Source of the DNA: an uncultured Pelagibacteraceae bacterium
GTDB lineage: Bacteria > Pseudomonadota > Alphaproteobacteria > Pelagibacterales > Pelagibacteraceae
Direction: 5' to 3'
Length of the DNA stretch: 44,112 nt
NCBI GenBank assembly: GCA_902542855.1
Contig: CACBWE010000006.1
Span: 1-44,112 of the forward strand
The notes under the pieces were generated by a model. It did no database searches and was not told the origin of the DNA. It saw nothing but the letters and a program-made list of their open reading frames with translations. Of the stretch, positions 853 through 36,583 are shown one piece after another. A program made the translations under genes and the position numbers. Each line of letters opens with the position of its first letter. Within the stretch, counting starts at the first letter, position 1.

Positions 853-886
853 AAAGGGTCGATTATTCAATCGGCCCTTTTTTTTT
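853..886 (+). terminator. Intrinsic terminator-type hairpin after the SBP gene
   Basis: AAAGGGTCGATT-ATTC-AATCGGCCCTTT (12 bp stem, 4 nt loop) followed by a T tract. Confidence 0.9.
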
Positions 887-912: not shown

Positions 913-1083
913 ATGAATACATCAACAACAAAAAAACCAAGACAAGAGTCAGACCGACAAGGTGAAAAAAAATGGTACTCTGCATTTACGTCTCGTCCGG
1001 AGGTTGGACCTTTTGGAGTTATGGTTTTACTTTTTTGTATGTTGGGATACTTTTCTATTCCAGAAGGACAATTTTCTAACTAG
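913..1083 (+). pseudogene. 5' remnant of a sugar ABC transporter permease (56 codons), truncated at a junction
   Basis: MNTSTTKKPRQESDRQGEKKWYSAFTSRPEVGPFGVMVLLFCMLGYFSIPEGQFSN*: cytoplasmic N-terminus plus first TM of an RbsC-like permease, directly downstream of the SBP, then abrupt stop. Confidence 0.7.
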
Positions 1084-1869
1084 TGAGTCTATTTCATGTA
1101 AAAAATCAATTTCGTTTGAAACTCCTCCTCCAAATATAAAAGCATCAGGATCTAAAATATTTATGATGCTTGAAAGTGACATTGCCAAATTTACTTTAAA
1201 ATCATCTATAAATCTTTCTGCATCTAAATCATGTTTTCTGTTCAATTCAAAAATTTCATTTGTTTTTAAATTTTTTCCATAAAGTTTCTTAAATCTTTTT
1301 GCTAAACTTAAACCAGATAAAAAACTTTCAATCTCTGCTTCCCTAGCATTACTAGAGTCGAAATTTTCTTTTTTAGCTGCAAAATATGGAATCTGGTTGT
1401 GTCCCCATTCTCCTGCTACTCCATTCGAGCCAGTAATAATTTTTTTATCTATTACTAAACCACCTCCAACTCCCGAACCTAATATAATTCCATAAACGAT
1501 TTTGTAATGTTTACCTGATCCATCTATAGCTTCTGATAAAGAAAAACAGTTTGCATCATTTTCACAAAATACCTCTTTTCCAAGTGCTTTACGTAGATCA
1601 CTTTGAAATGGCCTTTTTTCTAACCAAGATATATTTGGAGCATTTTTTACTAATCCAGTTTGAGGAGAATGAACTCCTGGATGACAAACTCCAATTGGAA
1701 GTTCTTGTTTAAACTCTTGTTCTAATTGTCTATGAATATCTCTTATAGCAGTTATAATTTGGGTATACTCCTTTGGACAAGATATTCTTGATCTATGTTT
1801 TTCGTTCCCATTTTCTTCAAGAACAACACTCTCTATTTTGGTTGCACCAACATCAATACCTATTTGCAT
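1027..1869 (-). CDS. ROK-family sugar kinase, apparently 3'-truncated; last ~18 codons read antisense through the permease remnant
   Basis: N-terminal DVGATKIE phosphate motif, ENDANC, GSGVGGGLVID, GEWGHN, IFGGGVSN; lacks the usual C-terminal ~30 aa. Confidence 0.85.
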   Translation of the reverse strand: MQIGIDVGATKIESVVLEENGNEKHRSRISCPKEYTQIITAIRDIHRQLEQEFKQELPIGVCHPGVHSPQTGLVKNAPNISWLEKRPFQSDLRKALGKEVFCENDANCFSLSEAIDGSGKHYKIVYGIILGSGVGGGLVIDKKIITGSNGVAGEWGHNQIPYFAAKKENFDSSNAREAEIESFLSGLSLAKRFKKLYGKNLKTNEIFELNRKHDLDAERFIDDFKVNLAMSLSSIINILDPDAFIFGGGVSNEIDFLHEIDSLVRKLSFWNRKVSQHTKK

Positions 1870-1871
1870 AA

Positions 1872-2621
1872 CTAATATGTAGCTCTTCCACCACTTAAAT
1901 CAAAAACTGCTGCAGTCGAAAATGAATTTTCCTCACTTGCTAACCAAGTTACTAATGATGCTAATTCTTCAACTTTTGCAAATTTGTTTCTAGGAATTTT
2001 TGATAACATATAATTTATATGTTCTTGTGTCATTTGATCAAATATCCTCGTCTTAGCTGCTGCTGGTGTTACACAATTTACAGCTATATTTTTTTGCGCA
2101 AGCTCTTTACCTAGAGATTTTGTTAAACCTATTACACCTGCCTTAGAGGTACTGTAAGCGCTTGCATTTGGGTTTCCTTCTTTACCTGCAATTGACGCAA
2201 TATTAACAATTCTTCCGTAATCATTCTTAGCCATAAATGGAACAACTGCTTTGCAACAGTAAAAAACTGCATTTAAATTTAGGTTAATTACCTTATTCCA
2301 CTCTTCTATTGGATATTCTGCAACTGTAGTATTCAATCCAGCTACACCCGCATTATTAATAAAAATATCAATCTTACCATGTGATTTTTCAACTTCAGAT
2401 AATTTTGAATTTATTGCATCATAATTGATCACATCAACTATTTGATAAGTTAAGTTTTCTGAATTTACTTTTTCTAAAGCTTTTTTGGCTTCACTTTCGT
2501 CTATATCCCAAATTACTACTTTAGCTCCAGACTCAATAAATCTTTCAGTGATAGCTAAACCAAATCCTTGAGCTCCACCTGTTACAATTGCTACTCTGTT
2601 TTTTAAATCATATTTAATCAT
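1872..2621 (-). CDS. SDR-family oxidoreductase (FabG-like)
   Basis: TGGAQGFG nucleotide motif, NNAG, S...YSTSK catalytic motif. Confidence 0.9.
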   Translation of the reverse strand: MIKYDLKNRVAIVTGGAQGFGLAITERFIESGAKVVIWDIDESEAKKALEKVNSENLTYQIVDVINYDAINSKLSEVEKSHGKIDIFINNAGVAGLNTTVAEYPIEEWNKVINLNLNAVFYCCKAVVPFMAKNDYGRIVNIASIAGKEGNPNASAYSTSKAGVIGLTKSLGKELAQKNIAVNCVTPAAAKTRIFDQMTQEHINYMLSKIPRNKFAKVEELASLVTWLASEENSFSTAAVFDLSGGRATY

Positions 2622-2623
2622 CT

Positions 2624-4096
2624 TTATTTTTTAAATTTTTTTGATCTTATTAAAGGAAAAGCTAAGGCAATTAAAGACAAAATAAAGAACGTTAAAGCTA
2701 TTGGTCTTGTGAAAAACATTAACCAATTTCCATCAAATATAACCAGAGATTGTCTTAAAGTACCCTCAACTAACTCACCTAAAATTAATCCAATGATAAC
2801 TGGTACAACTGAGAAACCATATCTTCTCATAAAGAAACCTAGAACACCAAAAAATAACATTATCCATACATCAATTATGGATTGGTTTAGTGAATAGGTT
2901 CCACAAACTGAAACTGCAAAAATCATTGGCCATAAAATTTTATTTGGGACTAGTGTTATTCTTGCAAAAATTTTTGCTCCAAAGAAACCAAATATAAAAA
3001 ACAAAACATTAGCAATTAACATTGCTCCAAAAATTCCATATAAAAAATCGGGTTGTTCTCTAAATAAATCAGGACCAGGTCTCACACCATGTATAATTAA
3101 TCCAGTTAGGATAACAGCAGTTGTTGCGCTCCCAGGAATTCCAAGCGCAAGTGTTGGAACCATTGCACCTCCTGTTGCTGCATTATTTGCTGCTTCTGCA
3201 CCCGCAATACCTTCTATAGAACCTTTTCCAAACTCTTCGGGTTTTTTTGAAAATCTTTTTGCTTCTGAATATCCAATTAAAGAAGCAACTGTTCCACCTT
3301 CAGCAGGTAACACTCCAATAAACGAACCTATACCGCTGGATCTTAAAATTGTTTTCCAGGTTTTTTTATAATCATCTTTACTAGGAAGTTTTATTGCTTT
3401 TAAAGCTATTCTATTAAATACTTGGTTAATTAAAGTTGATTGAGTTAACATCTCGCTTATAGCAAATAAACCAACTACTACCGGTATAAAACCAATCCCT
3501 TCAGTTAATTCATTAATTCCAAAAGTAAACCGATCAATTGAAGTCATGAAATCTTTACCAACAGTTGAAATTAAAATTCCAAATGCGCCTGCAATTAAAT
3601 TCTTAATTGGACTTCCCTCTCCTATTGATGCAAGCATCGTTAAACCAAAAATAGCTAATGCAAAATATTCTGGTTGACCAAATTCATATGCAAGTTGAGC
3701 CAGAATAGGTGCGAAAAAGACAAGAATAATAACACTAAAAATACCCCCAACTGTACTAGAAACAGTTGCCATTCCTAAAGCCCTTCCAGCCTCTCCCTTT
3801 TGTGCTAAAGGATACCCGTCTAAACAAGTTGCGGCAGCAGCTGGAGTTCCAGGTGTATTAATTAGAACTGCAGTTATTGCACCTCCATAAGTACCTGCAC
3901 AATAAATAGAGGTTAACAATACAATTGCTGATAATGGATCTAGTGTCATTGTAAAAGGTAAAATCAATGCTCCACCAGTTGTTGGTCCTAAACCAGGTAG
4001 AACACCTAATATTAAACCAAACAAAGTTCCAAAAAATAAAACCAACAATAGCTTTGAGCTAAACAAAGGAGCCATCATTAATAATAAATTGTCCAT
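2624..4096 (-). CDS. tctA: Tripartite tricarboxylate transporter large permease TctA
   Basis: 490 aa multi-TM protein with GLGPTTGGALILPFTM and ALGIPGSATTAVILTGL family motifs. Confidence 0.93.
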   Translation of the reverse strand: MDNLLLMMAPLFSSKLLLVLFFGTLFGLILGVLPGLGPTTGGALILPFTMTLDPLSAIVLLTSIYCAGTYGGAITAVLINTPGTPAAAATCLDGYPLAQKGEAGRALGMATVSSTVGGIFSVIILVFFAPILAQLAYEFGQPEYFALAIFGLTMLASIGEGSPIKNLIAGAFGILISTVGKDFMTSIDRFTFGINELTEGIGFIPVVVGLFAISEMLTQSTLINQVFNRIALKAIKLPSKDDYKKTWKTILRSSGIGSFIGVLPAEGGTVASLIGYSEAKRFSKKPEEFGKGSIEGIAGAEAANNAATGGAMVPTLALGIPGSATTAVILTGLIIHGVRPGPDLFREQPDFLYGIFGAMLIANVLFFIFGFFGAKIFARITLVPNKILWPMIFAVSVCGTYSLNQSIIDVWIMLFFGVLGFFMRRYGFSVVPVIIGLILGELVEGTLRQSLVIFDGNWLMFFTRPIALTFFILSLIALAFPLIRSKKFKK

Positions 4097-4603
4097 CTAG
4101 CTATAATAAATATTAGTTATAATTCCAGGTGGAAATCTTAAACCTAAAATTGTTTCAAAAAAAATAAAGACAATCATAGGAAAAATTATCCCAACAAGTA
4201 ATAAATAAAATATTCTTTTCTCTCCCCAACAATAGGAAACAAAAATAGATAATACTGAAATAGCTAGAAAGAAATCTAAAGTCTTTGAAATAACCAAGAA
4301 AATCAAAAAGCTTAAAAGTGTTAAATAGAATGATTTTGGAAGTTTTTTTTCAACTTTCCAAGGATTTTTAGTTGCTAAATAATAGATTAACAATGTAATT
4401 ACTATAATTAAAACTAAGAGTGCTTTTGGAAATGTTGCTGGCTGTATTCCTCTATTTAAAATGGGAGGAACAATGTCAAAAGTAAAAGTTGTGATTAATA
4501 ATGCTATAGATATTAAAATAATAACCAAACAAACTTTAAACTCATCTCTAAAAAAAAAGGGCAAACTTTTGTTTGCCCTTTTTTGTTTTTGTACATTTTT
4601 CAT
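4097..4603 (-). CDS. tctB: Tripartite tricarboxylate transporter small permease TctB (start codon uncertain)
   Basis: Small 4-TM protein between tctC and tctA; annotated N-terminus overlaps a terminator hairpin so the true start may be downstream. Confidence 0.8.
   Translation of the reverse strand: MKNVQKQKRANKSLPFFFRDEFKVCLVIILISIALLITTFTFDIVPPILNRGIQPATFPKALLVLIIVITLLIYYLATKNPWKVEKKLPKSFYLTLLSFLIFLVISKTLDFFLAISVLSIFVSYCWGEKRIFYLLLVGIIFPMIVFIFFETILGLRFPPGIITNIYYS
4551..4584 (-). terminator. Terminator or attenuator hairpin between tctC and tctB
   Basis: AAAAAAGGGCAAAC-TTTT-GTTTGCCCTTTTTT; on the minus strand the stem is followed by a T tract. Confidence 0.85.
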
Positions 4604-4626
4604 ATCTAAATGTACTTTTGATTAGA

Positions 4627-5601
4627 TTAGTTTATGTAACCTAAAGCTTTAAGCTGAGCAGTCATTTCTGTAAGCATTTCTTCCATTTGCTTACCCCACT
4701 CGTCAGCACCAACTACACTAGTGTCATCAAGACCAATTTCAGTTAAGAAATTTTTGTAATAGTTGTGGCTCATAGCTTTCATCATTCCAGCTTCTAATTG
4801 TTTTACTCTGTCTGCTGGAGCACCTTTTTTAGTTACGAAACCTCTAACAGTAGATAAAGAAACAGGTATACCTAATTCCTTTGCTGTTGGAGAATCTCCA
4901 ATTTTTGCCATTCTATTATTTGCTAATACAACTGATACACAAAGTTTACCTTCATTAATTTCAGTTAGCGCTTCACCTAAGTTTAAAACACCTACATCAA
5001 TATCTCCTTTGATAAGGTTAGTTTTAATTGGCGCAACACCTTTGTAAGCAACGATAGTTGGATCTTTTAATCCACCTTTTTTTGTAAATGCAATTGCACT
5101 AACATCGTCAATACCACCAGTATGAGTAGTTCCATATTTTAGTGACTTTGATTTTTGAGTACTAATAAATTTTTTAGCATCTTTAATATCGTTTTTACAA
5201 TTTACAACAAATAACTGAGGGTCATCTGTTCCTCTAGCAAGTGGTTGCATATCACTTAACTTAACTTTAGTTTTTCCTAAAGCCATGGAAACAGCATGAC
5301 CTGTTGTCCAAGTTAAAGTGTGATTTCCATCAGCTGGTAAAGACATCATATAATCCATAGATGCGGCACCACCACCACCTTTTTTGTTTACTAATTGCAT
5401 GTCTTGCTTAAGGACTCTTCTTGCTCTTAATAACATCATTCTAGTAGTAACGTCAGTTCCACCACCAAAACCAGCGTGTGTAATTGCTTGTATTGGATGA
5501 CCATCAGCTTTAGCTGATGTGATCATTAATGGAAGAGCTACAACAAAAAATTCAGTTACTAGAAAAGCAGCTGCTAAAAATAGTTTAAAGCTTTTTTTCA
5601 T
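4627..5601 (-). CDS. tctC: Tripartite tricarboxylate transporter substrate-binding protein TctC/BugT-like
   Basis: Signal peptide; ITHAGFGGGTDVTTRMM, KSLKYGTTHTGGIDD; upstream of tctB and tctA. Confidence 0.92.
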   Translation of the reverse strand: MKKSFKLFLAAAFLVTEFFVVALPLMITSAKADGHPIQAITHAGFGGGTDVTTRMMLLRARRVLKQDMQLVNKKGGGGAASMDYMMSLPADGNHTLTWTTGHAVSMALGKTKVKLSDMQPLARGTDDPQLFVVNCKNDIKDAKKFISTQKSKSLKYGTTHTGGIDDVSAIAFTKKGGLKDPTIVAYKGVAPIKTNLIKGDIDVGVLNLGEALTEINEGKLCVSVVLANNRMAKIGDSPTAKELGIPVSLSTVRGFVTKKGAPADRVKQLEAGMMKAMSHNYYKNFLTEIGLDDTSVVGADEWGKQMEEMLTEMTAQLKALGYIN

Positions 5602-5670
5602 TATTTCCCTCTTAAGTTAATTTATATATAATAATTTAAACATAATCTGCTACAAGACGTAAAGAAAAAA

Positions 5671-6666
5671 ATGACTGAAAATAAATCTAACATAGCTCTT
5701 CTACTTGGTGATCCAGCTGGAATTGGACCAGAATTAATTTCAAAACTTTTAAATGATGAAATGACAAAAAAAGCAAACATCGTCATAATCGGTGAGAAAC
5801 AAGTTTTTGAAAGCGGAAATAGTATTACAGGAATTTCACATAATATAGATATTGTAGAAAATTTTGATGATGTAAATTTTGATAAAGCAAATAGATATTT
5901 GTTAGATATTTCTAAAGGTAAGAATCATAAATATAAATTAGCGGAACCATCAAAAGAGTCTGGTGAAAGTGTATTGGAAGCTTTAGATTTAGCCTTAACT
6001 CTAGCTAAAGAAAAAAAAATAGATGCAATTAATTTTGCACCAATGAATAAAACAAGTTTAAAACTTGGGGGAAATAAACATTCAGATGAATTACAGTTAA
6101 TGGCTGAAAAACTTGAAGTAAATAGTTTTTGTTGTGAATTTAATGTTATTGATAATTTTTGGACAGCAAGAGTAACATCTCATATTCCAATAAAAGAAGT
6201 TGCTCAACATATTACTAAAGATAATATCATTAAACCTATAAAATTAATTAATGAGGTTATGGAGTTGAATGGTGTAAAAAATCCTAGAATTGCCATTCAA
6301 GCTCTGAATCCACACGCAGAGTTTGGGACAGAGGAAAAAGATGAGATCATTCCTGCGATTGAAGAGGCAAAAAAACTTGGCTACGATGTTGATGGTCCAT
6401 TACCATGCGATACATCTTTTGTTGTAGCTTATAAAAATAAAAACCATGATTGTATGGTTGGTATGTATCATGATGCACTTCAATCTGGACTTAAGGCATT
6501 TGGCTTTGATAGAGGAGTAACAGTTCAAGGTGGATTGACTGTACCAGTAACTACTACTGCTCATGGATCAGCATTTGCTATCGCTGGAAAAAATGAGGCT
6601 AATCTAGCTCCAATCTTAAACTCTTTTAAGATTGCTTTATCAATGTCACAAAATAAGAAAAACTAA
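5671..6666 (+). CDS. PdxA/PdxA2-family 4-phospho-hydroxyacid dehydrogenase
   Basis: GDPAGIGPEL start, LNPHAEFG, MYHDA, GLTVPVTTTAHGSAFAIAGK metal and substrate motifs. Confidence 0.9.
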   Translation: MTENKSNIALLLGDPAGIGPELISKLLNDEMTKKANIVIIGEKQVFESGNSITGISHNIDIVENFDDVNFDKANRYLLDISKGKNHKYKLAEPSKESGESVLEALDLALTLAKEKKIDAINFAPMNKTSLKLGGNKHSDELQLMAEKLEVNSFCCEFNVIDNFWTARVTSHIPIKEVAQHITKDNIIKPIKLINEVMELNGVKNPRIAIQALNPHAEFGTEEKDEIIPAIEEAKKLGYDVDGPLPCDTSFVVAYKNKNHDCMVGMYHDALQSGLKAFGFDRGVTVQGGLTVPVTTTAHGSAFAIAGKNEANLAPILNSFKIALSMSQNKKN

Positions 6667-7424
6667 ATTAATCCTGCGTCAACTGTAAAGTTTTGTTTTG
6701 TACATCCTGATGAAACATCAGACGCTAAGAATAAAACCATTTTTGAAACATCTTCAGGTAATAATTGTTTTTTTAAAGCCTGATTTTTTAATATTTCCTT
6801 TTTAAATTTTGGATTAAGCCATAATTTGGATTGTCTAGCTGTTGCGATTGAACCAGGTGCAATTGAGTTAATTCTTATATTATGTTTTCCTAAATCTCTT
6901 GCTAAAGATCTTGTTAATCCATGAATTCCTGCTTTTGCAATACTATATGCTGGAAACATTACTGCTCCTCTAACCCAACTGACAGACCCTAAATTTATTA
7001 TTGATCCACCTTTGTTCTTTATCATGCTTTTTTTAACTGATTGTATTGCAAACAAATAATGCTTTAAATTAATCGCCATTCTATCATCCCAATATTTTTC
7101 TGTAATTTTCTCTAAACTATGCCTTTGGTCGTTAGAAGCGTTGTTGACTAAAATATCAATAGGACCCTGTTTTTTGATTATGTTTAAAATTGATAGTTTA
7201 TATTTTTTTATATTTTTAATGTCACATTCCACAAAATTTGGAATTTTAAATTTTTTCTTTTTGATCTTATTAATAGTTTTTTTTGCCTCTTTTTTATCAA
7301 TATCGAAAAAATACACTTCCACTCCTTGCTCACAGAGATGTTCAACAATTGAGGAACCAATCCCAGAGGCTCCTCCTGAAATTAAAGCTCTTTTATTTTT
7401 AAGATCAAAATATTCAGTTTTCAT
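6663..7424 (-). CDS. SDR-family oxidoreductase
   Basis: ISGGASGIG, NNAS, YSIAK motifs. Confidence 0.9.
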   Translation of the reverse strand: MKTEYFDLKNKRALISGGASGIGSSIVEHLCEQGVEVYFFDIDKKEAKKTINKIKKKKFKIPNFVECDIKNIKKYKLSILNIIKKQGPIDILVNNASNDQRHSLEKITEKYWDDRMAINLKHYLFAIQSVKKSMIKNKGGSIINLGSVSWVRGAVMFPAYSIAKAGIHGLTRSLARDLGKHNIRINSIAPGSIATARQSKLWLNPKFKKEILKNQALKKQLLPEDVSKMVLFLASDVSSGCTKQNFTVDAGLI

Positions 7425-7438
7425 TTTTAAAAAAAATA

Positions 7439-8353
7439 TTAATAACTCTTTATATATTCCAAAGATGGCATTGAAGCTGCTGCGCCTTGTTTAGTGGTTG
7501 AAATTGCTGCAACTTGATTTGCAAAAGTAAGTACTTCTTTAATTCGTAAATCTTTTGATAACCCTACAGCTAATGCAGCATTGAAAGCATCACCTGCGCC
7601 TGTAGTATCAACTACTGGGTCTTTAAGTTTAAATGCTTCTACGAAAAAATTTTCTTTTTTATTTGCAAAATAACATCCTCTTTCTCCTAATGTTATAACA
7701 ATATTTTTAATACCTTTTTTTAAAAATTCCTCTGAAGCATTTTTGATATCTTTTTCTGTTTCAATTTTTTTATTTAAATAAAATTCTGCTTCAGTTTCAT
7801 TAGGTGTAAAAAAATCTATTAATTTAAAATCATTATCTTTAATTTTGCATGCAGGTGCTGGATTTAATATTGTGGCTAATCCCTTTTCTTTAGCTTTTTT
7901 TAATGCATAGCTAGTAACCTCATATGGTGTTTCTAGTTGTGTTAAAAATATTTCTGCTTTTGCAATAAAATTTAAATTTTTTTCAATGTCATCATGGGTA
8001 ATAGTTCCAGCAGCACCAGGTATTATATTTATTGCATTCTCACCAGTTTTTTTATTTACCATTATTCCTGCAACTCCAGTTGAGTGATTTTCATCTTGAA
8101 TTATACAAGCAGTGTCTATACCCAATTCTTTATATAAAGTTAAAGCCATCTCACCATTTTTGTCTTTGCCAATTTTTGTAATAAAATTTACGCTTCCATT
8201 GAGTTTAGCTGCTGCAATTGCTTGGTTTGACCCTTTTCCACCTGGTCCAATAATATGTTGCGAACCTAGAATAGTTTGTCCTTTTTCAGGGATAGCGTTA
8301 GAAATGAAGCAAAGATCTGCAACAAATACACCAAAAACTGAAATGGTTTTCAT
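7439..8353 (-). CDS. rbsK: Ribokinase (PfkB family)
   Basis: GGKGSNQA and DTTGAGDAFN PfkB signatures; LNPAPA. Confidence 0.92.
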   Translation of the reverse strand: MKTISVFGVFVADLCFISNAIPEKGQTILGSQHIIGPGGKGSNQAIAAAKLNGSVNFITKIGKDKNGEMALTLYKELGIDTACIIQDENHSTGVAGIMVNKKTGENAINIIPGAAGTITHDDIEKNLNFIAKAEIFLTQLETPYEVTSYALKKAKEKGLATILNPAPACKIKDNDFKLIDFFTPNETEAEFYLNKKIETEKDIKNASEEFLKKGIKNIVITLGERGCYFANKKENFFVEAFKLKDPVVDTTGAGDAFNAALAVGLSKDLRIKEVLTFANQVAAISTTKQGAAASMPSLEYIKSY

Positions 8354-8356
8354 TTT

Positions 8357-8818
8357 TTAAGTCCAAACGTTTCCGTCAGGCAAAATGACTCCTTTGGTAA
8401 GTATAAAACAGCCAAACGGTCTTGCGTCTGTTGTAGTAACAATGCAATAAGCTTTTTTAGCCTCTTGATAAAATTCTTGTCTTGAAATTGATCCCACATT
8501 CCAATTTTCTCCTGAGATTTTTTTTACAACTTCAATAAATTCTTTATGTGTTTCGGTTAACTCCTCAGGTTTATCATCTACTTCCATTCTTAAAGCTGGA
8601 GAACCTCCTTTTGAATTAATAAAACTATCTAGTGGAAAAACTGAAAGTATGGCAGAGGCTGCTTCTTTTATACCAACTCCGTCTAATCTTATTACTTTTT
8701 CATTTGTAGTATATGCTGGAAAATTAGCATCAGCTAATATCAGTTTTTCTCCATGACCCATAGATCTTAGATGAAAAAGTAAATCTGGGCTTAATACTGG
8801 ATCAATTTTAATAAGCAT
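8357..8818 (-). CDS. fucU: RbsD/FucU-family sugar mutarotase
   Basis: LLFHLRSMGHGEKLILADANFPA; family C-terminal region TTDARPFGCFILTKGVI. Confidence 0.88.
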   Translation of the reverse strand: MLIKIDPVLSPDLLFHLRSMGHGEKLILADANFPAYTTNEKVIRLDGVGIKEAASAILSVFPLDSFINSKGGSPALRMEVDDKPEELTETHKEFIEVVKKISGENWNVGSISRQEFYQEAKKAYCIVTTTDARPFGCFILTKGVILPDGNVWT

Positions 8819-8835
8819 GGATTATTATATTACAT

Positions 8836-8872
8836 AAAAAAAAAGGGTGGAATTAAATTCCACCCTTTTTTT
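8836..8872 (-). terminator. Symmetric terminator/attenuator hairpin after the RbsB-like SBP
   Basis: AAAAAAA-GGGTGGAAT-TAA-ATTCCACCC-TTTTTTT. Confidence 0.9.
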
Positions 8873-8890
8873 AAATTATATACTTATCGA

Positions 8891-9823
8891 TTATTTAAAA
8901 TCGTTGGCGTTTTCTTTTGTTACTAATTGTGTTCCTGTATCAATGTTTGGATCAATACTTCCACCATTAGCTAACTCTAGAGCATATTTTACTCCATATG
9001 CGCCCATGTTGTAAGAAAACTGAGCAATTGTTGCTGTCATCTCTCCTTTTAAGATACTTGTAGCTGCATCTGGAGTAGCATCAAATCCTACTACAACAAC
9101 ATCATTCATGTCCGCATCTTTAAGAGCCTGCATAGCACCTAAGCCCATATTATCATTTGAAGCAAATATTGCTTTAATATTTGGATTTTTTAAAATAATC
9201 GACTCAGTTACAGATCTACCTTTTGCAGTGTCCCACTCAGCAGTTTGAGTTGCAACAATGTTCAATCCACAATTTTTAAAACCTTTTATTGCACCATCTC
9301 TTCTTAACAACGCTGTAGATTGTGACTCAATACCAGTTAAAATTGCAACATCTGAACCTTTGGGAGTTTTATCACAAATAAATTTTGCAGCTAACTCTGC
9401 ACCATTCATGTTGTTTGTTCCAATAAAAGTTACTCCTTCATTTATTCCTTTTGTATCAACAAATACTACTGGAACTCCACTCTTGATCGCATCATCAACG
9501 ATCGGAGCAAAAGCATTTGGATCTCCTGGTGCAAGTGCTAAAGCATCAACACCTTTTGCCAGTTGGTCCTCTACTTGATTTATCTGTGCCTGAACATCTC
9601 CTTCTTGTGGAGGTGCAATTAAAATTAATTTAACACCTAGTTTTTTAGCTTCCTCTTCAGCACCTTTTGTTACAGATGCCCAAAAAGGATTTCCTGATCC
9701 AGGACCTTTAATACTGAATAGAATTTTTTTACCATGTCCATCAGCAAAAGACACTGAACCTATACTGATCGATAAAAAAATTGCTGTAAAAAAAACAACA
9801 ATTTTTTTTGTTAAGTTTTTCAT
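8891..9823 (-). CDS. Sugar ABC transporter substrate-binding protein (RbsB-like)
   Basis: Signal peptide; GPGSGNPFWASVTKGAEEEAK; SNDNMGLGAMQAL. Confidence 0.93.
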   Translation of the reverse strand: MKNLTKKIVVFFTAIFLSISIGSVSFADGHGKKILFSIKGPGSGNPFWASVTKGAEEEAKKLGVKLILIAPPQEGDVQAQINQVEDQLAKGVDALALAPGDPNAFAPIVDDAIKSGVPVVFVDTKGINEGVTFIGTNNMNGAELAAKFICDKTPKGSDVAILTGIESQSTALLRRDGAIKGFKNCGLNIVATQTAEWDTAKGRSVTESIILKNPNIKAIFASNDNMGLGAMQALKDADMNDVVVVGFDATPDAATSILKGEMTATIAQFSYNMGAYGVKYALELANGGSIDPNIDTGTQLVTKENANDFK

Positions 9824-9941
9824 TTATTTCCCCTATTGTTATTTAAAGTTAAATTAAATAAAAAAATTCAGAAGAGTTCAACTATTTATAAGTATGCTAA
9901 GACAATTTTGAATACAACTAAGGCGTGTAAATATATATAAT

Positions 9942-10955
9942 TTATTTTCTAGTTCCCAAATCTCTTCTTAATACGTCTACATAAACTGCAAGAACTATTA
10001 TGGAACCTATCAAAACTTGCTGCCAAAAAGAACTAACATCCATCAAATTGAGACCATTTCTCAGAATTCCCATAATCATTACACCTGCAAATACTCCAAG
10101 GACTGTACCTCTTCCACCAAAAAAACTTGCTCCTCCGATAATACATGCAGCGATCGCATCAAGTTCAGATTGAAGTCCAGCGTTGGGATAACCTGAGTCA
10201 GTTCTGCCTGCTAAAATTAAAGCACCAATACCTGATAGAAATCCACATAGTGAGTAAACTATAACTAAAATTTTGTTAACATTTATTCCAGATGCTCTAG
10301 CAGCATTTGGATTTCCTCCGATTGCATAAATCCATTTTCCGGTTTTGCTATGATTTAAAAAAATCCAAAAAATTATATATACAATAGCAATTAATACTAA
10401 ACTTACTGGAAGGTATTGCGATTTTTCTAATCCTAACCATTGAAGATCAATTCTTCCATGACCAAGGTACCTAACTTCATCTGTAAAACCACTTATTGGG
10501 GTTCCACCAGAAATTAAGTTTCCAGTTCCTCTAAATATATAAAGAGTACCTAAAGTCATTATAAAAGGATGTGGCATGCGAAGTAAGGTGATACCTAGGC
10601 CATTAAATAGACCACATAAAAACCCTGCAATCAAAGGTGTAATTACTACAATGTACCAAGGCGCTCCAGCTTTAGCAACAACAGCCAATATCATTAATGA
10701 TAACATCATGATTGAACCGACCGAAAGATCTATCCCAGCAGTCACAATTACCATAAATACTCCCAAGGCTAACATTGACTGCCAAGATATTTGTTTAAAA
10801 ACGTTAGTTACATTTCTCCAAGATAAAAAAACATCTGGTTGCAAAATGTGCATAACCAAAATCATAATTACTAATAAAAGAAGAATTCCATATTTTTCTA
10901 AATATGGCATTAGTTTCAAATGAAGGCTTACAATTTTTTTATCTTTATCTTCCAT
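9942..10955 (-). CDS. Sugar ABC transporter permease (RbsC-like)
   Basis: TAGIDLSVGS, NPNAARASGIN, IACIIGGASFFGGRGTV; ATG at 10955 preferred over upstream 10979 because it avoids overlap with the ATPase gene. Confidence 0.92.
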   Translation of the reverse strand: MEDKDKKIVSLHLKLMPYLEKYGILLLLVIMILVMHILQPDVFLSWRNVTNVFKQISWQSMLALGVFMVIVTAGIDLSVGSIMMLSLMILAVVAKAGAPWYIVVITPLIAGFLCGLFNGLGITLLRMPHPFIMTLGTLYIFRGTGNLISGGTPISGFTDEVRYLGHGRIDLQWLGLEKSQYLPVSLVLIAIVYIIFWIFLNHSKTGKWIYAIGGNPNAARASGINVNKILVIVYSLCGFLSGIGALILAGRTDSGYPNAGLQSELDAIAACIIGGASFFGGRGTVLGVFAGVMIMGILRNGLNLMDVSSFWQQVLIGSIIVLAVYVDVLRRDLGTRK

Positions 10956-10957
10956 AT

Positions 10958-11707
10958 TTATTTTTTTCCCATAATCCAACCAATCACTTCATCTCTAGAT
11001 GTACTTGATAGGTTGGCTTCTGCGAAATTAGTTCCTTGAAATAAAGCCATCACTCTGTCACATACTGTAAATATATCATCCATTCTATGACTTATAACAA
11101 TCACTCCAACACCTGTTTTTTTTAAACTATTAATAAGATCTAAAACTTTACCCACTTCTTTGATTGCTAATGCTGCAGTCGGTTCATCCATAATTACTAC
11201 ATTAGCATTAAAGGCAGTTGATCGTGCGATTGCCACAGCTTGTCTTTGACCACCTGAAAGTTCCTCTACTTTTTGATCGGCACTTTTAACATTAATTTTT
11301 AACTTATCTAAATGAGCATTAGTTAATTCTTTAATTTTATTAAAATCTAATAGTTTTAAAAATCCTAAATTTTTTGTTGGCTCTCTTCCTAAAAAAATAT
11401 TTTCACCAATAGGTAAATTACCTGCTAGAGCAAGATCTTGATAAACCATTTCTAAACCTAAATTTTGAGAGTCTCTTGGACTTTCTAATATTTCTTCTTT
11501 GCCTTGGAAAAATAAGGAACCTGCGCTTGGTTTATAAAGTCCCGACAAAACTTTCATTAAAGTTGATTTTCCTGCTCCGTTATCTCCCACTACACCCAAA
11601 CATTCTCCAGCATGAACCTTTAAGTTAACATTTTCTAATGCAGTAATAGTTCCAAAATATTTTGTTATCCCTTTAGCTTCTAAGAGTGGATTGGTAGTTG
11701 CCGACAT
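10958..11707 (-). CDS. Sugar ABC transporter ATP-binding protein, single-domain
   Basis: Walker A GDNGAGKST, signature LSGGQRQAVAIAR, Walker B VVIMDEP. Confidence 0.93.
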   Translation of the reverse strand: MSATTNPLLEAKGITKYFGTITALENVNLKVHAGECLGVVGDNGAGKSTLMKVLSGLYKPSAGSLFFQGKEEILESPRDSQNLGLEMVYQDLALAGNLPIGENIFLGREPTKNLGFLKLLDFNKIKELTNAHLDKLKINVKSADQKVEELSGGQRQAVAIARSTAFNANVVIMDEPTAALAIKEVGKVLDLINSLKKTGVGVIVISHRMDDIFTVCDRVMALFQGTNFAEANLSSTSRDEVIGWIMGKK

Positions 11708-11729
11708 AATTTATAAAATTATTAAAATA

Positions 11730-12752
11730 TCAATTAATTGCAACTGGTTTTGAGGCCAATAATCGTACTGTTTTCAATTCAGCTTTTTTGCAAAATTTTG
11801 GTTTTAAATTTTTTGAAATTAGATGCATGTCCTTTAAAACAATATCCCCCATACTATAAAAGGCCTCTGTCAAAGCTCCTGCTCTATGCGCTGAAAACAA
11901 AATATTTTTGACTTTCCTAATTGGGTCATTTTTTCTCACTGGTTCCAAAGGAAATACGTCAGTAGCTACATAAATATCTCCCTTTTTAACTCTATCGATT
12001 AAATCTTTAAAATTTACAACTGCTGCTCGACTCATCAATATGAATAGTGAGTTAGGTTTCATTTTGTTAATTAAATTTTTATTAACTAAATTTTTATTCT
12101 TAGTTGTTACAGCGGCTAAAACATAGATAATTTCACATGTTTTAAACATTTGATTTAAACTAACAGGTTTAAATCCGAAGCTTTTAATTTTATTCTTTGA
12201 TAACCATGGGTCATAAACATTTATATCTTTAGTAAATGGAAGTAACATTGGATATAAAGATTTAGCTAAATCACCAAAACCCAGTAATCCAATTTTTTTT
12301 CCTGATAATAAAGATGCTTTTAAATTACTTTCTAACCCATATTTTTCTTTACCTTTTACAAAATCAAAATGAGCATTATGAATATTCCTTAATAGAGAAA
12401 GTGTCATTCCTAATGCAATTTCAGCGACAGGATTTGAAAACACTGGGGAAGTTGCAATTACATGGATTCCCTTTTTAGCACAATAAACATAATCAACGTT
12501 ATTCATAAAATTACTTTCAACATTGATTATTGCTTTCAATTTTTTTGCTTTTGACAGAATTTTTTTATCTAAGTCTGGCTGACCCATAATGAAAGTAGCC
12601 TTATCAATATAGTTTTCATAAAATTGTCTTTTTTTTTTATCAGGTGCTACTAAAACCTTATATTTTGTTTTTAATTCTATTAATTTTTTTTTCGTAAAAA
12701 TCAGATCCAGTGTTCTTGGGAAAGGATCAGATATAACAATTGGTTTTGACAC
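11730..12752 (-). CDS. D-isomer-specific 2-hydroxyacid dehydrogenase
   Basis: LLGFGDLAKSLYPML NAD motif; SRAAVV Arg, DVFPLEP Glu, SAHRAG His catalytic residues. Confidence 0.85.
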   Translation of the reverse strand: MSKPIVISDPFPRTLDLIFTKKKLIELKTKYKVLVAPDKKKRQFYENYIDKATFIMGQPDLDKKILSKAKKLKAIINVESNFMNNVDYVYCAKKGIHVIATSPVFSNPVAEIALGMTLSLLRNIHNAHFDFVKGKEKYGLESNLKASLLSGKKIGLLGFGDLAKSLYPMLLPFTKDINVYDPWLSKNKIKSFGFKPVSLNQMFKTCEIIYVLAAVTTKNKNLVNKNLINKMKPNSLFILMSRAAVVNFKDLIDRVKKGDIYVATDVFPLEPVRKNDPIRKVKNILFSAHRAGALTEAFYSMGDIVLKDMHLISKNLKPKFCKKAELKTVRLLASKPVAIN

Positions 12753-13906
12753 TAAATTAAAATTTTTTTTACTTCTTCTTCGGTAAATTTTTTTGGTTTA
12801 TCACATTTTGTTTTTATTTTTTGAGGAATTCCAGTATTTGCTGCCCTCATGGTTGACTCTATTATATCTAATACATGTAAAGATAAATCACCTGAACACC
12901 TGTGCTTTTTATTTTTCTGAATAGAATATAACATTTCAGATAAACCAACACTCCGATAGTTCGCATTTGTAGCAGCTTCATTTGATCTTCCACTAGAAGA
13001 AGTTATGTTTATTTTTCCTAAATGCATCTTATCTGTTTTATGTTCACCCCATTTTCCACCCTCTGTAACAGAAATAAAAACAGAACCACCAAACATATTG
13101 GGATCTGGAACAATAATCGATCCCTTTGTGCCATAAAGTTCCATGTGATTTCTTTGATGATTAATTACATCAAAAGAAAGTGTTACTTGAATTATTGCAC
13201 CGCTGTGAAATTGGATTGTTGCTAAGTATGTTGTAGGAGTTTCAACTTTAAATGATTTATTTTTTTTTGGACCCGCTCCATAAATTCTTTTTTTAAAGGC
13301 TGTTAATGTTCTTCCTTGCACTTGTTTTGCTGGTCCAAGTAAATTTACTAAGGTTGTAAAAAAGTATGGTCCCATATCTATTACTGGACCTCCTTCTTTT
13401 TTATACCATGACTCAGGTTTTGGATGAAAAGACTCTACCCCTGGAAATGCAAAAATGGCATTACCTAATTTAATCTCTCCAATCAAATCAGAGTCAATTA
13501 ATTCTCGAGCTTTTTGAATTCCTCCGCCTAAAAATGTATCTGGAGCATTTCCAAGATAAAGTTTATTTTTTTTTGCTAGTGAGACGAGTTCTTTACCTTT
13601 TGCAAAATAAGTTGCTAATGGTTTTTCTGAATAAACATGTTTACCTGAAGTCAAAACTTTTTTTGAGACTGAATAATGAGATTGTGGAATTGTTAAGTTT
13701 AAAATAACTTCTATTTCATTGTCTTTTAAAATTTCCAAAACTGTTTTAGATTTAATATTGTATAATTTTGCACATTTATCGGCTGCTTTTTGATCAATAT
13801 CTGCACATGCAATTATTTTAAAATTATTAAAATATTGTTGCCCCCTAAAGTATGTCTCAGCAATATGACCACAGCCTATAAGACCGACCTTAAAAATTTT
13901 ATTCAT
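12752..13906 (-). CDS. Gfo/Idh/MocA-family oxidoreductase
   Basis: VGLIGCGHIAETYFRG, YSEKPLAT motif. Confidence 0.9.
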   Translation of the reverse strand: MNKIFKVGLIGCGHIAETYFRGQQYFNNFKIIACADIDQKAADKCAKLYNIKSKTVLEILKDNEIEVILNLTIPQSHYSVSKKVLTSGKHVYSEKPLATYFAKGKELVSLAKKNKLYLGNAPDTFLGGGIQKARELIDSDLIGEIKLGNAIFAFPGVESFHPKPESWYKKEGGPVIDMGPYFFTTLVNLLGPAKQVQGRTLTAFKKRIYGAGPKKNKSFKVETPTTYLATIQFHSGAIIQVTLSFDVINHQRNHMELYGTKGSIIVPDPNMFGGSVFISVTEGGKWGEHKTDKMHLGKINITSSSGRSNEAATNANYRSVGLSEMLYSIQKNKKHRCSGDLSLHVLDIIESTMRAANTGIPQKIKTKCDKPKKFTEEEVKKILI

Positions 13907-23236: not shown

Positions 23237-23251
23237 TATTTAAAAAAATTA

Positions 23252-24175
23252 ATGACTAAAATTTTAATTACAGAATTTATCAATCAAAGTAGTTTAGAAA
23301 ATTTAAATAAAAAATTTGATGTTAAGTATGATGAAAAATTATATGAAAATGAAAAACAACTAATAACAATGATTAAAGATTATGAAGGTCTAATTGTTAG
23401 AAATAAAACTCAGGTAAATTTAGACATTTTAAAAAATGCCTTAAAGTTAAAATTTATTGGAAGGTTGGGTGTTGGCTTAGATAATATTGATACAGAATAT
23501 TGTAAAAATAAAAAAATTCATGTTCAACCAGCTACAGGAATGAATGCAGATTCTGTTGCTGAATATGTCATTTCTTCATCAATGTCTCTTATAAAAAAAA
23601 TCCCAATGTTTCATAATGGAACTATCAAAGGTGAATGGCCAAGAACAACAATTAAGTCCATAGAAATAAACCAAAAAAATTTAGGGATAATAGGATTTGG
23701 GATAATTGGAAAAAAAGTTGCTGAGTATTCTTCAAAAAATGGTTTAAAGATTTTAGCCTACGATCCTTATGTTAAAGAAATAAATGATAAAGAAATTGAC
23801 GCTAAATTATCAAGTTTAAAGGAGATATATGAAAAATCAGATATCATTTCCATACACTTGCCTTTAACAGATGAAACAAAAAACATGGTAAATGAATTTT
23901 CATTTTCTCAAATGAAGAATAAACCAATTATAATAAATACCTCAAGAGGAGGTATAATAAATGAAAGTGATTTAATTAAAGCTTACCATAAAAATATTAT
24001 TTCTGGATTTGCTCTAGATGTTTTTGAAAATGAACCAATAGAGAGCAAATTTTATCACAAAATAAAACCAGGTATGAATTGTATTTTGACGCCTCATATC
24101 TCTGGTGTAACAACAGAGTCAAACATTAGAGTAAGTGACTTTATAGTTAAAAAAATTACAGATTTTTTTAATTAA
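23252..24175 (+). CDS. D-isomer-specific 2-hydroxyacid dehydrogenase (SerA-like)
   Basis: GRLGVGLDNID, IGFGIIGKKVAEY, INTSRGGIINE, DVFENEPIE, TPHISG. Confidence 0.9.
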   Translation: MTKILITEFINQSSLENLNKKFDVKYDEKLYENEKQLITMIKDYEGLIVRNKTQVNLDILKNALKLKFIGRLGVGLDNIDTEYCKNKKIHVQPATGMNADSVAEYVISSSMSLIKKIPMFHNGTIKGEWPRTTIKSIEINQKNLGIIGFGIIGKKVAEYSSKNGLKILAYDPYVKEINDKEIDAKLSSLKEIYEKSDIISIHLPLTDETKNMVNEFSFSQMKNKPIIINTSRGGIINESDLIKAYHKNIISGFALDVFENEPIESKFYHKIKPGMNCILTPHISGVTTESNIRVSDFIVKKITDFFN

Positions 24176-25250
24176 TTATTTCCTCTAGATTTATCAATCT
24201 ACCTTGTTTTATTGATTTTTCTGCAGCCTCACCCATTGCAACAGCAATTAAACCATCTTGTAATGAAACCTCTGGATCTGAATTACTTTCAATAGCTTTC
24301 AAAAAAGCTAAGTGTTCGTAGTAAGTAGATCCATGATGGTGGCCGGCCTCAAGAATTTTTTTATCTACTTCAATATTTTCGATATGTGTTTTACCATCTC
24401 TCATTCCAATTCTTATATTTGATGAGGTTTTACCTGAATCATTAGAAGGGACCGAAGTTTCAATTTTGCCTTTATTTCCTGTGGCTACAAGCTCTTCTTG
24501 CATGTCAGAATTTTCTGCAAACATGCAAAGCTCAAGCAAACTTCTTGCTCCATTTTCAAAATTTACAATCACATAGGCATTATCAATGATGTCTGGCTTT
24601 TTTTCATTATACACTTCATCCAAATGGTTAACGTCTTGACCACCACTTGCATAAACACTGAGCGGCTTACTTTGAATAATCAATCTCATTAAATCAAAGA
24701 AATGGCAGCATTTTTCAACAAGTGTACCACCAGTATTTTCTTCAAAACGATTCCAATCATTTACTTTTTTTAAAAAAGGAAATCTATGTTCCCTTATGGT
24801 TAAAGTTTTTAAATTACCAATTTTGTTATTATGAATTTCATTAATAAACTTTGAAACTGGCGGCATATATCTATACTCCATTGCAGTCCAAAATACTGAA
24901 GGATAATCTTTTGTAAGTTTTTTTATTTCTAAGCAATCTTTTGTATTAGTGCATAATGGTTTTTCTATTAATATGTGTTTTTTAGTTTTGATTACATCTT
25001 TCAAGATTTCTATATGAGTAAAGTTAGGAGATGAAATTAAGTACACATCAACAATATTTTTTTCAATCATTTCTAAATGATTTTTAAAACAAAAAACTTT
25101 TGTTTTTAGAATTTCTTTACATTGATTTAATGAAACTTCATGAGGATCAGCAAGTGCAACTACTTCAGCATTATCAATTAATGATATATTCAAAATATGT
25201 TCTCGAGCCATTGTCCCTGCTCCAATAATTCCATATTTTATTTTTTTCAT
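24168..25250 (-). CDS. Gfo/Idh/MocA-family oxidoreductase
   Basis: YGIIGAGTMAREHI, LIEKPLCTN, GGTLVEKCCHFFDL. Confidence 0.9.
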   Translation of the reverse strand: MKKIKYGIIGAGTMAREHILNISLIDNAEVVALADPHEVSLNQCKEILKTKVFCFKNHLEMIEKNIVDVYLISSPNFTHIEILKDVIKTKKHILIEKPLCTNTKDCLEIKKLTKDYPSVFWTAMEYRYMPPVSKFINEIHNNKIGNLKTLTIREHRFPFLKKVNDWNRFEENTGGTLVEKCCHFFDLMRLIIQSKPLSVYASGGQDVNHLDEVYNEKKPDIIDNAYVIVNFENGARSLLELCMFAENSDMQEELVATGNKGKIETSVPSNDSGKTSSNIRIGMRDGKTHIENIEVDKKILEAGHHHGSTYYEHLAFLKAIESNSDPEVSLQDGLIAVAMGEAAEKSIKQGRLINLEEIIN

Positions 25251-25280
25251 ATTATGTTTGTATCAGTTTAATTTAAAAAC

Positions 25281-26630
25281 TTAATCAATACTTAGCCCGC
25301 TTGGCACTTTATCTGGTTTACCCAGTGGTCTCTGATTTCCACTTCTGCCTGTTAAAGATTTGAGAAAAGAAACAAGTTCATCAATTTCTTTATCATTCAA
25401 TTCTATAGGCTGTATGTCAATGCTTGATAGAATTCTGTCTTGTTCTCTTTTGTCTGAAAAGGTTACAAAATCAATTTCTTCTAACCAAGTTGCCTTAGGT
25501 AAATTTGCATATTCAGGTTTCCAATTCTTATTCATTTTAATTGGATTTAAATGATGCTTAATTATTGATTTTAAAGTTGGATAAGCACCATTATGACCGT
25601 AGGGAGCTGTTAAAAAAACGTTTCTCAATGCTGGCGTTTTAAATTTATACATGTCGTTTATATTATCCGTTTCGACCATTCGGCCGACGTCACGTGCATA
25701 AGGATCAAAAGGGCGTGTCCTTCCAGGACCAAACTGGGGAATTCCTATTGAATGAAATTTTTGATCTGACAACAAAGATCCTGAATGACAAGAACTACAG
25801 TTTGCTTTTCCATAAAATAAATTCATCCCATTTATTTGCTTTAAAGTTAAAGCATGTTTATCTCCATTCAAATATTCATCAAAGGGAGAGTCAAAAGATG
25901 TCCATTCATGAATTTCAAATGCAGCAATTGAATTAACAATATGTGTAATGTTTATATCTAAAGGACCGTTAACATCATCAAAAGCATTTTTAAATAACTC
26001 AACATACTCTGGAATTCCTCTAATCCTGTGTGTAATTACAGGCCATACCCTATCAATTCTCATACTATCTTTTCCAACTTTAGAGACTAAACCTATAATT
26101 TCATTTTCACCTGGGTTTCCTGCCATCTCAAACTGTCTAGTCATTGGAAACAAAGCTTGAACTGCAACTATATTATCAAGTCCTTTTGGAAGTAGTTCTT
26201 GCGCTGGGGTATTAAAACCATTACCAAATGTATCAGATTTAGTCACTCTACCGTCATGAAGCAATGTTGTAATATCTTTAAATCCTAAATTCCATAAAGC
26301 TAAAGCATTTCTTGGAATTCGTTTTTTTATTTTATCATCACCCGTACCTGCAGTTCTCTCTAAACCTATACCTTGACCTCCTTCACCAATACCTAACGAA
26401 AGTCCATCTGAACCACCTAGATCATGACTATGGCAGGTTGCGCAAGCAATGTTTCGATTTGCAGATAAAATTTTGTCATGAAATAAAAGTCTTCCAATTT
26501 TAACTTTTTCTATATCAACTTGATGAAAATCTTCGCTCTTTAGTGGTTTTGGTAAATCAGTTGCGTAAGTTTTATTTACTGAAATTAAAAATGGAATTAT
26601 AAATAATATTATTTTTAAATGATTAAATAT
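25281..26630 (-). CDS. Secreted diheme cytochrome c peroxidase (MauG/CcpA family); start codon not determined
   Basis: Signal-peptide-like segment KIILFIIPFLISVNKTYA; two heme motifs CATCH and CSSCH; the ORF-track extension to 27044 is antisense to the SEL1 gene. Confidence 0.85.
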   Translation of the reverse strand: MFNHLKIILFIIPFLISVNKTYATDLPKPLKSEDFHQVDIEKVKIGRLLFHDKILSANRNIACATCHSHDLGGSDGLSLGIGEGGQGIGLERTAGTGDDKIKKRIPRNALALWNLGFKDITTLLHDGRVTKSDTFGNGFNTPAQELLPKGLDNIVAVQALFPMTRQFEMAGNPGENEIIGLVSKVGKDSMRIDRVWPVITHRIRGIPEYVELFKNAFDDVNGPLDINITHIVNSIAAFEIHEWTSFDSPFDEYLNGDKHALTLKQINGMNLFYGKANCSSCHSGSLLSDQKFHSIGIPQFGPGRTRPFDPYARDVGRMVETDNINDMYKFKTPALRNVFLTAPYGHNGAYPTLKSIIKHHLNPIKMNKNWKPEYANLPKATWLEEIDFVTFSDKREQDRILSSIDIQPIELNDKEIDELVSFLKSLTGRSGNQRPLGKPDKVPSGLSID

Positions 26631-27089
26631 CTTTCTATACTTTTGTTTCTTCCATCCATACTTTTTGCAGAAATAGAAAATGCTCGAGATTTGATGGAAG
26701 ATGGAAGATTTAAAGAAGCTATGGAAGAACTTATGCCAGCTGCTAGATCTGGTAATGCTGATGCTGAGGAGCTTATTGGAATTATGTACGCTATGGGTCT
26801 TGGTGTTGAAAGAGATGATGTTAGAGCTTTTGAATGGTATCTCAGATCTTCTATGAAAGGTCATCCTGGTGCTCAATCTGGTGTTGGATGGTATTACGAA
26901 ATTGGTAGAGGACTCCCTGCTCCCGATCTTGTTAGAGCTTATATGTGGTATGGTTTGTCTGCTATTGGTGGAGATCCTGATGCTGCAATTTCTCAGGAAG
27001 AAGTTATTAAAAAAATGACTCCTGAACAAATTGAAAAAGCTCATATTCTCATAAAAGATTATAAATCTTGGATATATCCTTTTAGATAA
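26619..27089 (+). CDS. SEL1-like/TPR repeat secreted protein
   Basis: Signal peptide MIKYLSILLFLPSILFA; SEL1 repeats 'AEELIGIMYAMGLGVERDDVRAFEWYLRSS', 'AQSGVGWYYEIGRG...VRAYMWYGLSA'. Confidence 0.87.
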   Translation: MIKYLSILLFLPSILFAEIENARDLMEDGRFKEAMEELMPAARSGNADAEELIGIMYAMGLGVERDDVRAFEWYLRSSMKGHPGAQSGVGWYYEIGRGLPAPDLVRAYMWYGLSAIGGDPDAAISQEEVIKKMTPEQIEKAHILIKDYKSWIYPFR

Positions 27090-27117
27090 TGAGGCGAACT
27101 AAAATCCGCCCCATTAT
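27086..27117 (-). terminator. Hairpin between convergent dctP and SEL1 genes
   Basis: ATAATGAGGCG...CGCCCCATTAT; the single A/C mismatch becomes a U-G wobble on the minus-strand (dctP) transcript. Confidence 0.65.
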
Positions 27118-27129
27118 ATTAATTTAAAA

Positions 27130-28182
27130 TTACAAATCTTTTTTGTATGCGCTCGATGCTTTTTTCTCTGCTTTGGCTACTGCTTTAGTTAAAGCGTTGA
27201 AAATTTCTTTTCCGCCTTTAACATTAGCTTTAAACCAATCATACACTGGGCTAGCTTCTTTTTTAAAACTAGCTTTTTGATCAGGTGTAGGAACATATAA
27301 ATCTCCTCCACCGGCTACAAAATCCTCATAAGCTTTGATTGATTTTCTCTTAGGCGAAGCAAAAGTTGCTTGCTGCAAAGCATAGAAACCATCCGTCACT
27401 ACTTTTTTAAGATCTGATGACATTGATTCGTATTTTGCATTATTCATCCACCATAATGCTCCCATGTATGCGTGACCGTCTAAAGTAACATATTTTAGGC
27501 CTGCATCAGGAAACTTCATATTCATAATGTCAGTAATTCCATTTTTAGAACCCTCAACTACACCAGTTTGAAATGATGTAAATAATTCTGGCCATGGAAT
27601 AGGAGTTGGAGATGCACCTAACGCTCTTACAAGCTCCTGAGGCAAATCAGCTACAACCGTTCTGATTTTTAAACCTTTCATGTCAGATGGATTTGCAATT
27701 CTTCTTTTAGTATTTGCAAAATTTCTCCATCCTCCAGTATTTCCAATTGTCATCAATCTAATTGAATCATTAGAATCTTTTAAAGCCATTTTTCTCATTG
27801 TTCTTACAAAATCACCTTGCATTACATCTTCAGCAATTCTGTCATCAGCCATTAGATAAGGTAAATCTAAAACTTGAACATATGGAAATACACCTGCAGC
27901 ACCTCCAGAAGTAGAAATGTAAATATCTATACTTCCATCAGATACACCCTGTAAACACTCAGCACCCTTTGAACATAGCTGAGTACCTACAAATAACTCT
28001 ACAGCTATTTTTCCATTTGAAGCTGCTTCAACGTAGTTTTTAAATACTACAGCACCATCATAGTCTTCATCTTGATCATTAGAGTTCATTGTCATTCTTA
28101 AGTTATAATCTGCAGCCGAAACTGACGCAGTAAAACTGATCAAGAATAATAATGAAAAAAATGATTTTATTAATTTACTCAT
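27130..28182 (-). CDS. dctP: TRAP transporter substrate-binding protein DctP
   Basis: Signal peptide MSKLIKSFFSLLFLISFTASVSA; DLPYLMADD, MKGLKIRTV, ALGASPTPIPWPELF; ATG at 28182 preferred because it has an AGGGG SD, upstream ATG 28200 does not. Confidence 0.93.
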   Translation of the reverse strand: MSKLIKSFFSLLFLISFTASVSAADYNLRMTMNSNDQDEDYDGAVVFKNYVEAASNGKIAVELFVGTQLCSKGAECLQGVSDGSIDIYISTSGGAAGVFPYVQVLDLPYLMADDRIAEDVMQGDFVRTMRKMALKDSNDSIRLMTIGNTGGWRNFANTKRRIANPSDMKGLKIRTVVADLPQELVRALGASPTPIPWPELFTSFQTGVVEGSKNGITDIMNMKFPDAGLKYVTLDGHAYMGALWWMNNAKYESMSSDLKKVVTDGFYALQQATFASPKRKSIKAYEDFVAGGGDLYVPTPDQKASFKKEASPVYDWFKANVKGGKEIFNALTKAVAKAEKKASSAYKKDL

Positions 28183-28274
28183 AATTATTTCCCCTCTCAT
28201 TAAATATTTATGTACAAAAATTATACTTAAATTGAATTCGAGAGTCTATCGACTAGTAAAAAAAATTGATAAAT

Positions 28275-29564
28275 TTATTTTGCGAATCCAGTAAGCAGAG
28301 GAATCGTCATAGAAATTGATGGAAAATATGTTATTAAAAATATAACTATAGCTTCTACTGCTAAGAATGGCAATATAGCTTTTGCAATTGTTTCTACTCT
28401 TTCCCCAGAAACAGAAGATGCAACAAATAACACAAGACCCATAGGTGGGGTTGCTAAACCAACAGTTAAATTTACAGACATAATAATTGCAAAATGTACA
28501 GGATGAACTCCAAGCTCAACAAAAACTGGTCCAAGAATTGGCCCCAGAATAATTATAGCTGGACCTGCATCTAAAAACATTCCAACAACAAATAATAAAA
28601 TATTTATAAGAAATAATAATACATAAGGGTTATCAGTTAATCCTAAAACAAAAGCTGCAAGATGCTCAGGTGCATGTGATAAACTTACAACGGTTTTAAA
28701 AGCCATTGCAGCGCCTACTAAAAGAAGAACTACTGACGATACCATTGCTGCTTTTGTCATAACTTTAGGAATATCTTTCCATTTTAATGATTTCAAAACA
28801 AATAGACCGATAAACATTGCATAAGCAGCTGCAACAGCTGATGCTTCTGTTGGAGTAAAAATTCCACCAAGTATACCTCCTAAAATTATCACTGGTGTCA
28901 TTAAAGGAAAAAAAGCTTTAAGAGATGCCTTGCCTCTTTGGCTCCAAGTTTTTTTTTCGGTTACTGCTGGAAAATTATATCTCTTAGCCATAAATTTTAT
29001 TGTGACCATCAAACTAACTCCTACTAAAACACCAGGTACAATTCCTGCTAAAAATAATGCTGCAACACTCTCACCCATTACATACGCATAAATAATCATT
29101 ATCCCTGAGGGTGGAATTATGGGTCCAATAACAGAGCTAGCTGCAGTAATGGCTGCTGCAAATTTTTTTGTATATCCCTGTTTTTCCATTGCAGGAATAA
29201 GCATTGATCCAATTGCCGAAGTGTCAGCTACAGCTGAACCTGATAAACCAGCAAACAACATTGAAGTCAGCACATTGACATGAGCTAATCCACCTTTTAA
29301 ATGACCCATCATTGCCTGACTAAACTCAACAAGACGATGGGTTATTCCTCCTCTGTTCATTAATTCCCCTGCTAACATAAAAAATGGAATTGCCATCAAA
29401 GGGAAGCTATCTATTCCATTATAAATATTTCTATAAAGCATAGCTCCATCTCTAGCTTGATCATTTAACCAAAGTAAAATTCCTGGTGCTGCTAACAAAC
29501 CAAAAAATACTGGTAAACCAATTAACAAAAATATTAAAAAAAGAGGGAGAAACCAAACTAACAT
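28275..29564 (-). CDS. dctM: TRAP transporter large permease DctM
   Basis: MAIPFFMLAGELMNRGGIT, FAGLSGSAVADTSAIGSMLIP, IIPPSGIMIIYAYV. Confidence 0.95.
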   Translation of the reverse strand: MLVWFLPLFLIFLLIGLPVFFGLLAAPGILLWLNDQARDGAMLYRNIYNGIDSFPLMAIPFFMLAGELMNRGGITHRLVEFSQAMMGHLKGGLAHVNVLTSMLFAGLSGSAVADTSAIGSMLIPAMEKQGYTKKFAAAITAASSVIGPIIPPSGIMIIYAYVMGESVAALFLAGIVPGVLVGVSLMVTIKFMAKRYNFPAVTEKKTWSQRGKASLKAFFPLMTPVIILGGILGGIFTPTEASAVAAAYAMFIGLFVLKSLKWKDIPKVMTKAAMVSSVVLLLVGAAMAFKTVVSLSHAPEHLAAFVLGLTDNPYVLLFLINILLFVVGMFLDAGPAIIILGPILGPVFVELGVHPVHFAIIMSVNLTVGLATPPMGLVLFVASSVSGERVETIAKAILPFLAVEAIVIFLITYFPSISMTIPLLTGFAK

Positions 29565-30160: not shown

Positions 30161-30271
30161 AGCTAAATTTATTTTAATTATTTAATAAATACAACTTTAA
30201 TCAAAAAAGTAATTTACTTTATAGAATAATTCTCGTATTAAAAACGCTCTCTAAAAAAGTGACATATAATT

Positions 30272-36575: not shown

Positions 36576-36583
36576 ACTTTTAA

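Follow-up and report, generated by a model that had tools for sequence, protein, structure and literature searches.

Why do an ABC permease gene and a ROK kinase gene, lying on opposite strands, both break off at one point close to the start of a contig? The DNA analysed here, the window, is the whole of contig C6 (44,112 bases, position 1 being the contig start), and, from gene content, A+T richness and genome size, we infer a host of the genus Pelagibacter (SAR11). The parent assembly totals 836 kb in 49 contigs, with 60% completeness, 0.5% contamination and a last-numbered contig of 2,131 bp. A preliminary description had proposed a single junction that breaks both genes, formed by recombination or in assembly at a microhomology; the open reading frames and the alignments to relatives agree on such a junction, with the contig edge 1,077 nt beyond it.

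The features around the junction are listed in Table 1. The contig edge truncates the SBP gene on the 5′ side at about codon 24, where the reading frame is still open. Profile searches returned a Peripla_BP_4 match and a rhizopine SBP model match below cutoff, and the gene segment shows 95.4–97% nucleotide identity to G107, G115, G223, G238, G325 and G082. The hairpin that follows is strong and intra-operonic, located between SBP and permease, and probably yields SBP output in excess over permease. The permease reading frame spans 56 codons (913–1083, plus strand), with native sequence restricted to codons 1–55. The chimeric ROK reading frame (1027–1869, minus strand) encodes 280 aa and matches PF00480 with an E value of 7.9e-59, the match ending at profile position 261 of 294. 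Residues 1–266 of 300 are native, with residues 265–266 falling inside the microhomology, and are followed by 14 foreign residues, LSFWNRKVSQHTKK, derived from the permease antisense strand. The C-terminal loss, earlier put at about 30 residues with an antisense run through the permease, amounts to 34 residues relative to the 300-aa relatives and includes the conserved tail ...GDASGVRGAARLGRS. As described before, no permease or ATPase continues past the junction. The missing 3′ ends of the permease and ROK genes, suggested as a target for searches elsewhere in the genome, are both lacking from the 836-kb assembly.

Table 1. Features of the window at and around the junction
Feature	Position	Strand	Basis
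SBP gene, rhizopine/sugar-type Peripla_BP_4	1–839 (ORF 3–839)	+	ORF call, profile match
Terminator-like hairpin with T tract, SBP-permease gap	853–880	+	Present also in G074
Permease head, codons 1–55 of 531	913–1077	+	Relatives' alignment, no frameshift
8-nt microhomology AATTTTCT, common to both parents (junction)	1070–1077		Junction alignments to relatives
Chimeric ROK ORF: foreign C-terminal codons and stop, antisense to permease	1027–1069	-	ORF call, alignment
ROK kinase, native part without the last 34 of 300 aa	1078–1869	-	Relatives' alignment
SDR, TctA, TctB and TctC-like genes upstream of ROK, one operon	1872–5601	-	Order kept in relatives

Intact versions of both genes, which the preliminary description had asked relatives to supply, are present as neighbours in one operon. 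Of 100 other genomes in the genus, 46 contain ROK homologs, the closest matches ending at residue 267–268 of the window protein. The SBP search recovered three relatives at 94–99% amino-acid identity in which ROK is immediately followed, on its own strand, by SBP. The complete arrangement is seen on the single contig of G082 (L044), where tctC-tctB-tctA-SDR-ROK (300 aa)-SBP (301 aa)-permease (531 aa)-ATPase (259 aa) occupy one strand. ROK and SBP/permease share a contig, co-oriented, in nine genomes (G074, G082, G097, G107, G115, G178, G223, G238 and G325). The tctCBA-SDR-ROK-SBP-permease(-ATPase) operon of G082, G107, G115, G223 and others comprises the same genes as the window, with nucleotide identities of 92–97% on the SBP side and 83–95% on the ROK side. 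In these relatives ROK and permease are whole (300 and 531 aa), with SBP and ROK on one strand, whereas in the window both are broken and the strands are opposed. ROK measures 300 aa in all nine relatives and the permease 531 aa in all eight where it was read, leaving neither a naturally short ROK nor a genuine 56-codon frame among them. A fused functional ROK and a genuine small protein of 56 aa were both considered and rejected, neither occurring in relatives. Across the genus, the SBP-permease module that follows ROK (L044, L067–L071 and L073) is patchily distributed; strong DNA matches to it occur in 11 of 398 other genomes, and the ROK gene is far commoner than this module.

Alignment of the window to these operons resolves the junction to the nucleotide. 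Positions 1–1077 match SBP/permease of the relatives in one strand orientation, positions 1070–6000 match their ROK/SDR/tct in the opposite one, and the overlap between these alignments is exactly AATTTTCT. The window reads AGAAGGACAATTTTCTAACTAGTGAGTC across the junction; the permease of G107 and G115, GGACAATTTTCT, and the antisense ROK of G115, AATTTTCTAACTAGTGAGTC, each match it exactly on their own side. A 12-nt microhomology (1069–1080) had been proposed earlier: a microhomology does exist, but the sequence common to both parents without mismatch spans 8 nt (1070–1077), and of the residues VRKL, previously assigned to the native kinase, the last is already foreign (F in relatives). The segment carrying SBP and the permease head is inverted relative to ROK, with strands opposite compared with all nine relatives. 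Read in the operon sense, ROK ...AGAAAATT is followed after a gap of 1.4–1.5 kb by permease AATTTTCT, forming an 8-bp inverted repeat, with breakpoints 1,425 bp apart in G082 and 1,504 bp apart in G107 and G223. The parents of the junction are adjacent genes of one operon joined in inverted orientation, which goes beyond the preliminary description. Random position pairs in this DNA share a mean of 0.78 nt, and the probability of sharing at least 8 nt is 0.0004. Inverted 8-nt pairs are nevertheless plentiful, with 71 within the 1.5-kb stretch; the microhomology site is not special in itself, and what is notable is that the join falls on one. A search of the window for long inverted repeats returned nothing beyond weak, A+T-rich matches.

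Recombination or horizontal replacement between unrelated loci, with the DNA to the right of 1083 forming the edge of a replaced or inserted catabolic island, would also break both genes at one point. In nine relatives, however, the two halves sit next to each other within a single operon, and the right side retains its synteny: throughout 1070–44112 the window keeps the order and a constant orientation relative to G082 (391250–433904), to G107 and, as far as it was fetched, to G223, apart from presence/absence blocks. The nearest relatives are also the same on both sides of the junction (G223, 97.0/95.1%; G107, 96.6/93.9%; G115, 95.9/94.5%). The synteny in these alignments refutes the island proposal, to which we give next to no credence.

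Both broken genes show strong purifying selection, with dN/dS values against relatives of 0.02–0.07 for ROK, 0.02–0.15 for the 55-codon permease head and 0–0.09 for SBP, and no frameshifts. If the genes were ever broken in the cell, this must have happened very recently.

The junction very probably arose in vitro, as an inverted (fold-back) chimera, during phi29 multiple displacement amplification (MDA) of single-cell DNA, because the join is inverted, the joined genes are neighbours in nine relatives, the breakpoints share 8 nt of complementarity, the contig ends nearby, the junction is absent from relatives and neither gene has decayed. Sense-direction synthesis through tctCBA-SDR-ROK would have reached ...AGAAAATT when branch migration displaced the nascent 3′ end. 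That end would then anneal to AATTTTCT in the permease gene, ~1.4–1.5 kb farther along, carried by a neighbouring displaced strand of the same sense. Extension would proceed backwards across the permease head and SBP until it reached the template's 5′ end, and this end could correspond to the point where the contig stops, 1 kb past the junction. The next ~10 kb of the locus, searched across the contigs of the assembly, are missing, and together with the contig end at 1,077 nt past the junction this resembles the situation at an amplification dropout.

These properties match those of chimeras from MDA of a single E. coli cell, in which 406 of 475 (85%) were inverted and 337 of these 406 (83%) had their two sites separated by less than 10 kb; complementarity of at least 2 bp, with a maximum of 21, was present in 93.5% of this short-range inverted class (Lasken and Stockwell 2007, PMC1855051). 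The window join is likewise inverted, its sites lie well inside 10 kb (1,425–1,504 bp) and its 8-nt complementarity falls within the 2–21 nt observed there; in the published model, too, copying continues until the second template's 5′ end (PMC1855051). Those chimeras were seen in reads, whereas ours is an assembled contig whose amplification history, like the single-cell (SAG) origin of the genome and the reason for the contig stop, we infer. A single-cell origin of the assembly is plausible: its profile (836 kb, 49 contigs, 60% complete) is compatible with a SAG, and in a large marine comparison Pelagibacter made up 36% of SAGs versus 2% of MAGs (PMC11247762). Counting against an artefact, no second fold-back of this kind was detected when sampled stretches totalling ~316 kb were aligned to G082, so multiple chimeras cannot serve as support.

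Microhomology-mediated inversions in living cells could yield the same single junction. A genuine, very recent chromosomal inversion of ~1.5 kb at the 8-bp inverted repeat, encompassing the ROK tail, SBP and the permease head and inactivating both kinase and transporter, is compatible with the junction to an equal degree, and small inversions may occur, given a 367-nt segment inverted relative to G082 elsewhere in the assembly (C22). Such an event is nonetheless unlikely. It predicts a reciprocal junction, and neither the 60%-complete assembly, with no permease or ROK tail, nor the genome-contig scan contains one; pattern scans for the direct and the reciprocal junction over a collection that may omit the window's own genome gave no match. 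A genus-wide search recovered the junction from the window itself and from 0 of 398 other genomes, and neither broken gene has decayed. A genuine inversion would moreover place the contig stop ~430 bp before the second junction (G107 coordinates 5572 and 6002), which would require a coincidental contig end a short way within the inverted segment. The corresponding biological scenario, in which a wild strain has truly inverted 1.5 kb by way of microhomology and so turned off a sugar kinase and its ABC transporter at once, perhaps reversibly, is rather improbable as well. The inverted C22 segment (G000, L156; 8345–8711) is flanked by collinear segments and represents either a small real inversion or a gene-order difference.

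A join produced by the assembly graph or by binning across cells or strains, with no amplification event, fits the contig end and the fragmentary assembly. Usual assembler k-mers are longer than 8 nt, however, and both sides are similarly close to the same relatives, the join being a local inversion; we regard this origin as highly improbable. Of the two origins named in the preliminary description, recombination or assembly, we favour the artefact, in the form of an amplification chimera with inverted orientation and not of a junction between unrelated loci.

With an MDA fold-back as the favoured origin, the ROK, SBP, permease and ATPase genes are most likely all intact on the chromosome and united in a single operon, and contig C6 would start with ~1.1 kb that is wrongly oriented with respect to the remainder. 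For curation, neither the shortened ROK nor the 56-codon "permease" is to be taken as a sign of pseudogenization or of an island, and both genes are to be treated as intact in the organism until reads show otherwise. As biology the junction deserves little weight, most likely being a laboratory artefact. It provides a worked example in which an amplification fold-back is told from a rearrangement by synteny alone, the diagnostic set comprising two neighbours, inverted orientation, a short microhomology, a contig end and no decay.

Beyond the junction, the window contains two accessory blocks (6672–12753 and 23240–30284) that have no counterpart in the otherwise collinear G107. A sugar-uptake cassette at 35331–42230 is not found at this location in G082 but lies inside a stretch common with G107; on the reading of its ORFs, from which the names are taken, it comprises an SBP, two permeases, a GH4-like and a GH1-like glycosidase and a MalK-like ATPase.
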